Below, piece after piece: positions 1 through 5,291 of a stretch of DNA of 64,000 bases (position 1 is the first letter of the stretch; each line of letters begins with the position of its first letter). This DNA is from Trichodelitschia bisporula (lineage: Eukaryota; Ascomycota; Dothideomycetes; Phaeotrichales; Phaeotrichaceae). The stretch lies in the NCBI GenBank assembly GCA_010356995.1, contig ML996712.1, forward strand, positions 123,676-187,675, written 5' to 3'. The position numbers and the translations under genes were made by a program. Below the pieces are notes generated by a model. That model saw nothing but the letters and a program-made list of their open reading frames with translations. It searched no databases and had not been told where the DNA came from.

Positions 1-1656
1 GGGATTGGTTAGAAGGGATGGATGGGGGGCTGGGGGCGCTTACGTTCAGCGTGAGCAGCTTGATGGCCCCGGAGCTGTAGACCTCCTCCATGGCACGGCC
101 GAGCGCAGGCACCAGCACCGTAACCTTGCGATCCTTGGTCGTGAAGGGCGCATCGAGGTTTACGCGCGACACGGGCGTGACGGCCAGGTACTGCTGGGGC
201 GGGAAGATGCCCCCTGAAAACAAGCTGTCGTAGATGCGCTCCAGCCCGTTCATGATGCAGTTTTTCTCGCTTTCCTCCGTCATGTACGGCAGGATGCGCG
301 CGAGGCAGAAGAACTCGAACAGCGGGACTATGTCCCAGAAAGCGTATTCGCAGTACGCGGCCTTGACTTTTTCGCAGTACATGGCGAGGATGGAGACACA
401 GCGCGCGCGCCGGTGCTCGGGGATTGAGGTTTGGGTTAGGAACCATTGGTGTCGTACGTCTTGGAGCAGCTTTGCGATGTCTTGGAGGGGAGATTCCTGG
501 CTTGTTTAGTCTTTGTGTCGGTTGATCTGGTGCTTTACTTACGACGAAGCAGTCGAGGAAGTCGAACACGCACAACTCGCGGTTCTCCGGGTCAACGAGC
601 ATATTTGCCAGCGTCAAATCGCCATGGCACGGCCCGATCGGCACCTCGCGGCGTCCCAGCTGGCGAAACGAGCTCATAACGCGATCAATCTGGTGCTCGA
701 ACGTCTCAATCTCCGCCGGCGTGACAAGACTGCTCTTCCGCAGCGCAGCCTTGATGCCCGTAGCCTTCTTCTCAAACTCAGGAAAAACATGCCTTAACTC
801 CACCAACTCACTCAAATTCAAATTCGCATCCACCATCTCCACCGCCGTCTCCACAAGCCACTCATTCACCGCCCGGTCCCGCTCCATCATAACATGCCTC
901 ACATCCTGAAACGGGATATACTCCATATCCACCGTAAACGCGCCAACCTCGCCCTTCACCACCTCCGGCACGCGGATCCCATACACTTCCGGCGTACTCA
1001 CCGCCCTCAGCCCCGCGGCCCTACACCGCGCGGCAAACGCAATCTGCTTCTCGATCTGCTTCAACAGGCGATTCCCGTCTTGCTTCGCGCCGACGAAGGC
1101 TTCTTTCCGCACAGCCCACATCCCGCTCGTCAGCCGCCGGATCGTCGCGTCGTCAACGTACGTCCGCGCGCTGCTGTAGCTCGGCTTCTTGACATGTCCG
1201 CCGGGCGTGGTTGGGGGGCTCGGTTCGCGCAAAGCGAGGGCGGGCCGGCGGAGGGCCTTCTGGCTTTGTGATAGTCGAGACCTCGACAATTCGAGGGTCA
1301 TGTGGAGTTGCGGGCGAATGGGTACGGAGGAGCGCGCGGCGGAGAGGGTGGCTTGGAGGGCGGGGTCGGCCCAGACTGGCGCGGTTAGTATGATGGTATG
1401 GAAGGGGGGTGTTGGATGAGTGGGAGAGGGCGGGCCTACAGGCGTTGTTGACGCTGAGGTCTGCGACTGGGATGCCGGTGTGCGCATCGTGTATACCGAT
1501 GATTTGCACGGCGCAGTCGCTCTTGCCCTGATTCTTGAGCGTCGGGACATGGGATTCCGCCTCGCGCTGGCCGATGCTGCCGGCGCGGAGCCGCGCTGTG
1601 GGCGGCGAGGGGGGCGGCGCCGGCGTCGCGGGATCGAGGAGGGGAGCAGGTGCCAT
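1..1656 (-). CDS. capsule-type HGD phosphotransferase (APH/choline-kinase fold), 3' end outside the window
   Basis: Exons 1656-1440, 1375-543 and 496-44, each joined by GT..AG with matching phase; a fourth donor at 43-42 opens an intron that runs off the window, so the C-terminus is missing after 501 visible residues. Residues 323-330 carry CHGDLTLAN (Brenner motif, catalytic base and Mg ligand) and 344-347 DFLD (metal-binding aspartates), the signature of small-molecule kinases with the aminoglycoside/choline kinase fold. The junction reads FV|ESPLQDIAKLLQD, a run I associate with bacterial capsule-locus phosphotransferases. The N-terminal ~150 residues are Pro/Ser-rich and unassigned; the visible part ends in a segment KVTVLVPALG that may begin another domain. 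It diverges from the nucleotidyltransferase/HAD gene at 3432, and the pair likely acts on a shared substrate (inference). The substrate is unknown. The start at 1656 is the first ATG in the only reading consistent with splicing. Confidence 0.8.
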
Positions 1657-3431
1657 TGTGACTTCAGCTCACAGCTACTGTTTCGATGTTTGGTGTTGGG
1701 GATCGGGATGGGATCGCAATTGGATGGGAATTGGGATTGAGGACGCGGGAACAGCTTCAGGCATGCACGCACCCGGGGCTAGGGTCGACTATGTAGTAGC
1801 ACGATCGCGGCGCCGAAGTCGTCGATGGGGGGTGGGCGGGAGGCGTGCTCTGGGTGCGCCAACCTTATCTTAGCGGGGGAAGCTGGGGCGGCGCCGCGGC
1901 TGCGAGTTCAATATTTGCGGTATATACGGGCGCTTTGGCGAGGGCGAGACGTGATGGTAAATTACGATGGTTACCGCTACAGGTGGGGGAAGCGAGAGGA
2001 CTAGTTCTGTGATGGACTGGAGGGAATGGGCCAATGGCAGCGGCTTTTTGGACAACATGGGATGAGCTCCTCCTGATGTCCTTTCGTGATCGATGGAAGG
2101 GGTGACGTCTTTTCCTGCGGTGGGGGGGGGGTGGCGGAGTGAGTTGACGGGAGTGTGTTTCTCCTATTCTTGGGAGAGAGCGTGGGCGTGAGACATGTTC
2201 GCGGGAGATGGACAGAGTAAGTAAGCGGTTTCAGCACACGAGGATGGATGGATTATGTTACGGGAAATACGAGGCTTGAAGGCTAATTGCGCTTACGGTA
2301 GCGCCTGTCACTGCGTGAAGGCATGTGGAGCGCTGTTTGGACATGACTTGGGATGCTCTCAGAATGTGCATTGCATTTCGCAGGATCACTTCCTTCATGG
2401 CTTTCCTATCACCATCGCTTACGGAGTACACCTCTTCCCTTCCGCTCCAGACTGATCTCAATACAGCCCCGGGAAAGCCTCTCCGCAAAAGCAGGGAATT
2501 CATCGCAGCAAATCGGCTCCGCACATGCAAACCCCATCCGCCAGGTCCAGGCCGACAAGGCTGAACGCACGTCCTCATTTCCCCCAGTAGTAGATCCCAC
2601 GCCAAGCCCAGGGGTTGCGCCGCTCCAAAGGGCTGGGCAGGTGTGGGGCGGATTAACTTGAAAAGGGGCTAGCAATCACGCTGGACGCGCCGCCATGTGT
2701 TCCGGCGCTGTGTGGAGAGCTGAAAACCATCGTGGGCAGCGAAGGGCCGAGACTGGCGGCTAATATTGCACGCTATTATTGCTGAGGGAGGTGGCGACGC
2801 TCGACACCCGCAACCGAGGTCGCCAGTGCATCTGGGGAAGACGCGGTAGGGAAAGACACACACTCAGGCTGGCATTGTGGGATGCAAATCTTCCGCTGAT
2901 CGGCGAGCGCTCCCGCCCGCACCTCCGCTTCTTCAATCTCACTTATCAGCGATCTGCTGCGCCGCTTGCGAGCTTGCGTTTCAGATGAGACTGCTCGGAG
3001 TGCTCGGGCGAGCGCCATTGCGAACACTCCCAACGTAGTATAACGGCGGGTCTGCCCGCGCCCGGCGTGCCCGTAGCGCGTACCCGTAGCGTGCGAGTGA
3101 TGGCGTCGGCTAAGTCAAGCCAAAATTTCGATAAGCTAGCGGGGGGCCGGGCCCGAAGCTATGCATCCCGGCAAGTGTTAGCGGATGGAATGGAGGGGGG
3201 GAGTGAAGAGGGGGTGGCAGAGTGGACTGGGCCTTAGGCGTCGACTTCGAGAAGCTAAGAAAGGAAATATGGTAAAAGGGGGGCCCCTTGATCTGGAGGG
3301 GTGACGACGTCTGATGGAAGGATAGGAGAACATCTTGGGGCTTTTGAAGCTTTGCATCGCTGCCGTCCGCGCTCACTATCACCAACTCCAAACTCCCATC
3401 TTATCCTATACCGACCAACACTGATATCACG
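1657..3431. promoter_or_regulatory. divergent intergenic region of the capsule-type pair
   Basis: About 1.8 kb separates the two divergent starts and must hold both promoters. It contains only short overlapping open frames with no recognisable domain. I see no TATA box or repeat that I can defend, so individual sites are not called. Confidence 0.4.
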
Positions 3432-5291
3432 ATGGCCGGCTCAACCACCGTCCCCCCCGCCAACCGCCCCGCCCGGCGCAGCATCAAATTCGAGCAGCCC
3501 TTCGTCTACCACGCCAAAAAATCCTCAATCAGCATCTCCCCCCCCTTCCCCACCCCCATCCGCACCTTTTCCATCGCGGACTTCTTCGCCGTCTGCTCCG
3601 CCCTTGAACTCGACTGGCTGCTTAGCCTCACAACTTCCCACCTGAAGGCACTCCTCGCCTCCCCGGATGACCCCGCCACGCGCACATATTCAGCGTCGTA
3701 CTTCCCCGCGCACATCCCCCTCGACCGCGGCCGCCGGAGCATCTCCTGGCCCCTCCCCAGCACCGACAGCTCCGCCGACGTCGCCGCCTTCCTCGCAGGC
3801 CTCACGCTGCTCACCCTCGAAATCCCCGCCGCAGGCCCGGTGAGCAGCAACAAAGCCTCCCGCGTCCGCGCCAAGCTCACAACCCTCACCTTCCTCTCCG
3901 CCCTCACGTCCGCGCTGAGCGATGCCTGCCCGGCCCGGTTCCCCACCGTCCTCGCGCGGGCTAGCAGACTCCTCGTCGCCGCGGCAGAGGGGGATGTCTT
4001 GCTCGACGAGGAAGACGGCGTAATCCTGCGCGGCGCGGCGTCGCAGCTCGTGCTCGGCGCCGCGGATGGGCTCCCGCTACGGCTTAAGGACGGGCCACTG
4101 ACGCCCCGCGCAACCCTCCCGAGCGCCATACTCGTAACTCGGCCTGCGCGGCAGCCGCGCGCTCTTAGCGGGCCGAGTTCGACGCTCGTGATCCCGAGTG
4201 CGGGGCGGAGTTCGCGCTTCCCAGGGCATAAGCCGAAGTGGCTTCTGACGATGCCGAACGGGCGGCTCATGGTCGTGGATGCTATTGCTGGACTCGACTT
4301 GAGTGGGGTGAGCCGTGTGGTGCTGGGCGTGCTAAAGGAACACGTGGACAAGCACTGCGGGAGTGACATCAGCGCGCTCCTCCGCGCTTTCGAAGACGGG
4401 CCTGAAGAACTCGCAGACATCGATCTCAGCATCGTAGTCATCAATGCCGAAACCGTCGACCAGGTTCAAACCATCGAAGTCATCCTCAACACAGCGCGCG
4501 TCTCCGGCGCGATCTTCCTCAAAGACTGCGATAACCAATTCGCGTGCGCCGTGCCAGCGGTGGACGGCGTCGCAACCCTCGAAATCAGCCGCGAGATGCA
4601 GTCTCTCAACGTGCCCGCGGGCAAATCCTACGTCGACGTCGCGCTCGACGGGAGCATCCACAACATCGTCGAGAAGGTGATCCTGGGGCCTACGTTCTGT
4701 GTCGGGGGGTACGCATTCGCGTCGGCCGCGGACTTCACGGCGCACGTCGCGCAGGCGCGGAAACTGCAAAAGCTCTCCGCGGCCGGGGATGCCGAGCTCG
4801 CGGTCAGCGACGTCATCTGGCTGAAGCTGATCAAAGCGGCAGTCGGTCAGACACCTTGCACATTCCAATCCATCCCGGTAGCCGATTACGAGGACTGGGG
4901 CACGCTGGGCGCGTGGAAGGCATACTGCGCCACCTTCCGCAGCCTATTCCTCGACATCGACGGCACGCTGGTGAAGAACTCTGGGCAGTACTTCGGGAAG
5001 ACGTGGGGCGAGCAGCCGGGACTGGACAAGAGCGTGGCACACTTGCAGAACCTGTATGCCCGCGGACGGACGCAGATTATCCTGACGACGAGCCGGACGG
5101 AGGCGTTCCGCGAGGCGACGGAGCAGCAGTTGAGGGGGTTGGGGATCCCGTATGATCGGATTGTGTTTGGCATGTTCCATTGCCAGCGCGTGCTGGTTAA
5201 TGACTTCGCGAAGACGAATCCGTTCCCCAGCGCCAGTGCGATTAATCTGCGGCGCGATGGCGATGAGTTGAGCGAGATGTTGGACTATTAG
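3432..5291 (+). CDS. nucleotidyltransferase fused to HAD phosphatase, bacterial capsule type
   Basis: Intronless, 619 aa. Residues ~249-268 read TLVIPSAGRSSRFPGHKPKW, the N-terminal nucleotide-binding loop of sugar-phosphate nucleotidyltransferases. A matching C-terminal half includes HNIVEKVILGPTFCVGGY. From ~505 a HAD domain begins with FLDIDGTLVKN (motif I), then ILTTSR (motif II threonine/serine region) and VLVNDFAKTNPFPSA (motif IV). The HAD ending is like those of bacterial capsule-locus proteins as I remember them. The first ~240 residues are unassigned and rich in Ser/Ala/Leu. A nucleotidyltransferase plus phosphatase beside a divergent small-molecule kinase suggests activation of a phosphorylated sugar or polyol (inference; neither nucleotide nor substrate can be read from sequence). 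The lack of introns in a 1.9 kb gene fits a bacterial origin but is not proof, since other long genes here have few introns. Confidence 0.88.
   Translation: MAGSTTVPPANRPARRSIKFEQPFVYHAKKSSISISPPFPTPIRTFSIADFFAVCSALELDWLLSLTTSHLKALLASPDDPATRTYSASYFPAHIPLDRGRRSISWPLPSTDSSADVAAFLAGLTLLTLEIPAAGPVSSNKASRVRAKLTTLTFLSALTSALSDACPARFPTVLARASRLLVAAAEGDVLLDEEDGVILRGAASQLVLGAADGLPLRLKDGPLTPRATLPSAILVTRPARQPRALSGPSSTLVIPSAGRSSRFPGHKPKWLLTMPNGRLMVVDAIAGLDLSGVSRVVLGVLKEHVDKHCGSDISALLRAFEDGPEELADIDLSIVVINAETVDQVQTIEVILNTARVSGAIFLKDCDNQFACAVPAVDGVATLEISREMQSLNVPAGKSYVDVALDGSIHNIVEKVILGPTFCVGGYAFASAADFTAHVAQARKLQKLSAAGDAELAVSDVIWLKLIKAAVGQTPCTFQSIPVADYEDWGTLGAWKAYCATFRSLFLDIDGTLVKNSGQYFGKTWGEQPGLDKSVAHLQNLYARGRTQIILTTSRTEAFREATEQQLRGLGIPYDRIVFGMFHCQRVLVNDFAKTNPFPSASAINLRRDGDELSEMLDY

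Follow-up and report, generated by a model that had tools for sequence, protein, structure and literature searches.

Heptose is activated by the kinase HddA, the HAD phosphatase GmhB and the nucleotidyltransferase (NTase) HddC, with HddA being of the GHMP type, and choline by LicA and LicC, an APH/choline-kinase-like enzyme followed by an NTase, in a pathway not known to include a HAD domain. In the GDP-mannose (GMPPA/GMPPB) and plant ADP-glucose pyrophosphorylases, an inactive NTase paralogue, not known to carry a kinase, partners an active one. Here we describe a divergent gene pair, termed LEFT and RIGHT, in a window (the whole 64,000-nt stretch of DNA that was analysed, positions 123,676 to 187,675 of contig ML996712.1) from the 25.7-Mb genome of Trichodelitschia bisporula (Ascomycota, Dothideomycetes). 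In the LEFT protein an APH-type kinase precedes a decayed RIGHT-type NTase copy, RIGHT encodes an NTase joined to a HAD phosphatase, and the gene directly behind LEFT encodes a fusion of a nucleotide-sugar transporter with a GT-A glycosyltransferase (GT)-like domain. The pair shares with heptose activation the combination of kinase, HAD phosphatase and NTase, which there yields a nucleotide-activated sugar, but its kinase is APH-type rather than GHMP. With LicA/LicC it shares an APH-type kinase and an NTase, while differing in its HAD domain and in a choline kinase match that stays under the cut-off. As in the two pyrophosphorylases, inactive and active NTase paralogues occur side by side and by analogy might pair, although here the inactive copy sits on a kinase.

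We consider it probable, at roughly 0.58, that these genes form a three-gene glycosylation cluster: a sugar or polyol would be phosphorylated, activated with a nucleotide, carried as a donor into the Golgi and transferred. What we observed directly are the gene content, the motifs, the folds and the linkage. LEFT lies on the minus strand and has, in our splice model, four exons and three short GT-AG introns; the spliced product is letter-for-letter identical to EJ06DRAFT_266508 (P0121) of T. bisporula, a protein of 738 amino acids. RIGHT is one uninterrupted plus-strand frame of 619 amino acids, and 1775 bases separate the two start codons. A first-pass annotation, made from the letters of the window, had described a kinase with HGD and DFLD motifs set head to head with an NTase-HAD protein, one gene with introns and the other without, all of which is borne out by the motif translations, by Pfam family PF01636 and by the gene models. 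It had also called LEFT a phosphotransferase, which is right as far as the kinase domain goes; the 3′ remainder that it lacked, exon 4, ends 716 bases outside the window and holds a degenerate NTase, so that LEFT is not a kinase alone.

The LEFT kinase passes the APH family PF01636 (60.1 bits, cut-off 23.2) and fails the choline/ethanolamine kinase family PF01633 (17.7 bits, cut-off 29), with no GHMP kinase family among its Pfam matches. HGD[LF]T and KQ are common to all 17 kinases that were aligned. The NTase domain behind it failed the motif test for sugar-1-phosphate NTases: in P0121, residues S11, R13, P19, W21, T24, P26, E158, K159 and S195 are altered, while K20, K110, D111, D113, N114 and the DWG motif are retained. 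Among 14 LEFT proteins inspected, several of them incomplete, R13 and P19 each persist in only one of 11 and K159 in three of 13. Judged by these residues, the LEFT NTase domain is predicted to be dead.

The RIGHT NTase (P0001) is unaltered at all 27 inspected NTase columns, with nucleotide loop, metal and sugar-phosphate motifs present. A fold search matched the whole domain to the sugar-1-phosphate NTase class, CTP (cytidine triphosphate):inositol-1-phosphate transferases also being among the matches. The nucleoside-diphosphate-sugar pyrophosphorylase of Vibrio cholerae RC9 (PDB 4evw), whose function is taken from its deposited name, resembles the NTase part only. In the HAD domain, motif I DxD, the conserved T and R and the motif IV D are present, and nine of 10 inspected columns are unaltered. 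Its best Pfam match, HAD_SAK_2, fails at 20.7 bits against a cut-off of 27.5, a threshold that the bacterial relative P0098 narrowly passes (27.8 bits); in PHROGs the domain leads to polynucleotide kinase, and it is also similar to the phosphatase part of Pnkp1. In Pfam, no named family covers the N-terminal region of RIGHT (to about residue 245), which the fold search hardly sampled. A search of the T. bisporula genome found no NTase copy beyond LEFT and RIGHT. A 319-amino-acid open frame runs antisense to RIGHT (window 3506-4465, minus strand); it is probably a by-product of the high GC content of the RIGHT coding sequence (64%).

The third gene passes the nucleotide-sugar transporter family PF04142 (96 bits, cut-off 27), and its closest solved fold is the mouse CMP-sialic acid transporter (6oh3). 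Different from such SLC35A-type transporters, it is fused to a second domain for which the fold search returned a GT-A fold. With this fusion next door, the pair is probably not the self-contained unit that had been proposed. Relatives of the fusion were found on the pair's contig in three other fungi, namely Microthyrium, Patellaria and Sphaceloma (209-kb contig). Microthyrium microscopicum has two such relatives (P0141 and P0142) on a contig equal in size to the pair-bearing one.

Linkage of LEFT and RIGHT themselves extends further. The LEFT family search returned 19 proteins and the RIGHT search 137 matches, 120 of them listed; a shared contig was judged from equal contig size, for which all 19 LEFT rows were set against 47 of the 120 RIGHT rows listed and against 10 of the 63 rows for the transporter, the others being compared by eye. 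By this measure, nine of the 19 LEFT-family proteins, that of T. bisporula included, lie on one contig with a RIGHT protein; five of the 10 remaining LEFT proteins lie on contigs shorter than 6 kb. An illustrative example is Dothideomycetidae sp. 11243, where the two locus tags are consecutive. Fungal RIGHT relatives are about 40 to 67% identical across the aligned part, and their sources include Microthyrium, Hyaloscypha, Stipitochalara, Patellaria, Sphaceloma, Imshaugia and Pseudevernia, the last two being lichen fungi, as well as a chytrid record, Irineochytrium. Named members of the fungal RIGHT and LEFT NTase clades belong to several ascomycete classes. In the Irineochytrium annulatum record, a single RIGHT relative and two LEFT ones (P0050, P0125 and P0128) lie on three contigs of differing size, and its RIGHT protein clusters with lichen-fungus sequences; these rows may reflect contamination or lateral transfer.

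Outside fungi, NTase-HAD proteins of about 350 amino acids, without the N-terminal region, occur in bacteria, on viral contigs and, clearly, at two archaeal loci. Going by record titles, some 12 bacterial phyla have the module, as do two archaeal loci and a large number of viral contigs. Of 52 bacterial/archaeal loci with a clear NTase-HAD frame, 44 also had a kinase gene, which directly adjoins the NTase-HAD gene in 32; of 80 viral-contig loci, 69 had one, directly adjoining in 67. For these counts, P0139 and 10 fungal LEFT proteins went into the kinase profile, and 25 short proteins, together with P0033 from within the fungal clade, into the alignment behind the NTase-HAD profile. Of 65 bacterial loci, 13 lacked an NTase-HAD frame above 100 bits and were discarded; the viral-contig set comprises the 80 best of 162 loci, including many near-copies (42 were kept for the tree). 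Among the listed prokaryotic and viral rows, both genes lie on the same strand, kinase first except in L049, and adjoining genes mostly overlap or sit a few bases apart. Annotated plasmids gave one weak match and annotated phages two records.

The first-pass annotation had noted that such domains sit together in bacteria; the very same families adjoin in bacterial, archaeal and viral-contig loci, some of them near polysaccharide-type genes. Pfam WavE (PF07507) is named in the directly downstream genes of three loci (L019, L030 and L045). With seeded profiles, seeds counted, WavE-type genes lie at most two genes away in 12 of the 52 bacterial/archaeal and 15 of the 80 viral-contig loci, and epimerase-type genes in 15 and 43, respectively. 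Such neighbours would fit a role in activating a sugar or polyol for the surface. Both fungal proteins are homologous to the bacterial pair and share its key kinase, NTase and HAD motifs; its order, kinase before NTase-HAD, is also that of the LEFT fusion. In fungi, by contrast, the two genes diverge, a dead NTase is attached to the kinase, RIGHT has an N-terminal helical region, and a eukaryotic transporter-GT gene lies next door.

Several of these prokaryotic and viral rows deserve separate mention. The viral contigs L068-L147 (for example L109 and L080) carry the kinase and NTase-HAD pair, some next to epimerase-type genes. L109 has a gene matching a phage phosphate-transporter family and an OprB/SLH porin, which makes its viral label unsure. 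In L080 a phage tail sheath gene is present, no kinase was found, and a 689-amino-acid FkbM methyltransferase-WavE fusion (L080:5924-7990) stands directly before the NTase-HAD gene. L006 (a Rhodopirellula metagenome-assembled genome) and L045 (Marinobacter) have near-identical NTase-HAD genes under different phyla, so that one of the two labels is doubtful. P0139 (938 amino acids) combines the kinase, the family NTase and a second, different NTase, and no other row lies nearer to the fungal kinases.

In the careful NTase tree, the fungal RIGHT domains form one clade (support 100/98), as do the fungal LEFT domains (100/100), and a branch joins LEFT, RIGHT and P0085 (97/85), which fits a duplication within one eukaryotic lineage. 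The kinase tree likewise has a single fungal clade (100) with P0139 beside it (97). Such single clades are consistent with one old acquisition, and from these sequences the kinase and NTase-HAD genes were probably acquired once, long ago, by this fungal lineage from a bacterium or phage. The trees are unrooted; we take fungi to be the recipients and bacteria or phages the source because the module is spread wider in prokaryotes. Recent transfer was considered and rejected, as the fungal sequences form single, deep clades. The acquired pathway that had been suggested is supported in part, with the amendment that the acquisition is old. Of the two outcomes named in advance as speaking against it, an old fungal family is largely what we found, while homologues that are never adjacent are not. 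That the genes are instead old eukaryotic ones, passed on to bacteria and phages, would be permitted by unrooted trees but is very improbable given the single fungal clades and the breadth of the module outside fungi (about 12 bacterial phyla, two archaeal loci, numerous viral contigs), even if some titles may be wrong (L006/L045).

How the three proteins would work together, including step order, docking and the Golgi as site, we infer as follows. The LEFT kinase would phosphorylate a sugar or polyol, and the RIGHT NTase, going by its motifs and fold, would couple that phosphate to a nucleoside monophosphate and so yield a nucleotide-activated molecule. The HAD domain might strip another phosphate from an intermediate or clear side products. 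The dead LEFT NTase would dock on the live RIGHT NTase and so tether the kinase to it; the NTase would have duplicated after acquisition, one copy becoming the dead domain of the kinase protein. As family and fold suggest, the transporter would then bring the activated molecule into the Golgi, where the GT-A domain may transfer it to a glycan or glycoprotein destined for the wall or surface.

Some results weigh against such a cluster. The RIGHT NTase stays under all Pfam and NCBIfam cut-offs, with sub-threshold matches only (for example MobA-like NTP transferase PF12804, 15.9 bits, cut-off 27), and the GT-A match of the third gene is evidence of fold, not of function. The kinases are not uniform: that of Vibrio superstes has no RLxxQ, and DFLD is replaced by DWLD, DFLN or DFLE in some. 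The kinase was not found in eight of the 52 bacterial/archaeal and 11 of the 80 viral-contig loci, the kinase-less loci including short contigs. A WavE search of the T. bisporula genome gave no match, and control genomes were likewise silent. A quick tree placed the LEFT NTases on the bacterial side (88), which we attribute to a long branch because the careful tree joins them with the RIGHT clade and P0085.

The remaining difficulties concern the third gene and favour a different view, namely that the pair's nucleotide-activated product is put to use within the cytosol or goes into a secondary metabolite, the adjoining transporter-GT being unrelated. Five of the nine linked LEFT-RIGHT cases have no transporter-GT row on the contig, although two of those contigs are shorter than 33 kb. 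A weaker point is that the family occurs in many fungi without a RIGHT gene listed by name, being frequent in Colletotrichum and Fusarium, neither of which is among the roughly 10 of 120 listed RIGHT rows with an organism name. Set against this are the relatives on the pair's contig in three other fungi and the fact that the T. bisporula genome yielded just three sites for this transporter family, one of which adjoins the pair. We regard an unrelated transporter-GT as unlikely, if the best of the alternatives.

Less likely still, the pair might activate a small alcohol (such as choline, ethanolamine or a polyol) in the manner of LicA/LicC, giving a cytidine diphosphate (CDP)-alcohol rather than a nucleotide sugar. 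The weak kinase score with PF01633 and the CTP:inositol-1-phosphate transferases among the fold matches point this way; that same score lies below its cut-off, and the adjoining transporter is of the nucleotide-sugar class.

For the three-gene glycosylation cluster, each class of part is already known, and the general type is nucleotide-sugar activation with Golgi transfer. A search of titles and the opening parts of abstracts, with most subscription papers outside its reach, returned no description of this gene combination in fungi. The list of nucleotide-sugar donors known in fungi is short, and a bacterial-type activation module linked with a transporter-transferase fusion in several fungi points to a missing donor and glycan, for whose discovery the gene cluster is a handle. 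The kinase and NTase-HAD pair, nameless in the family libraries searched, also recurs in bacterial loci and phage-like contigs. More tentatively, and with the odds somewhat against it, some ascomycetes including lichen fungi may decorate Golgi glycans from an undescribed nucleotide-activated donor, made by a bacterial- or phage-derived enzyme pair whose kinase is yoked to the live NTase by its dead twin.

Table 1. Features of the LEFT-RIGHT locus. Positions are those of the window unless marked L001 (window position = L001 position - 9676).
Feature	Position	Strand	Basis
LEFT exon 1, start codon at 1656	1440..1656	-	splice model; product identical to P0121
LEFT exon 2, bulk of APH-type kinase domain	543..1375	-	splice model; Pfam PF01636 3.7e-16, residues 173-367
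Kinase catalytic loop CHGDLTLAN	603..629	-	translation; HGD[LF]T in 17/17 aligned kinases
Kinase motif DFLD	552..563	-	translation; aligned with bacterial kinases
LEFT exon 3, kinase end and degenerate NTase start	44..496	-	splice model
Third LEFT intron, part	1..43	-	splice model
LEFT exon 4, degenerate NTase	L001 9674-8961, outside window	-	
Transporter-glycosyltransferase gene	L001 7838-5136, farther outside window than LEFT exon 4		
RIGHT gene, single exon: mostly helical N-terminal region, NTase, HAD phosphatase	3432..5291	+	
NTase nucleotide-binding loop PSAGRSSRFPGHKPKWLLT	4194..4250	+	translation; conserved alignment columns
NTase KDCDN motif, putative metal site	4521..4535	+	translation, alignment
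NTase VEK motif, putative sugar-phosphate site, altered in LEFT	4668..4676	+	translation, alignment
NTase DWGT motif, putative second metal site	4893..4904	+	translation, alignment
HAD motif I DIDGT	4953..4967	+	translation, alignment
HAD motif IV region ND	5199..5204	+	translation, alignment

About 3 kb past the transporter-GT gene, the minus strand of L001 (566-1871) holds open frames that at first impression resemble a membrane acyltransferase.
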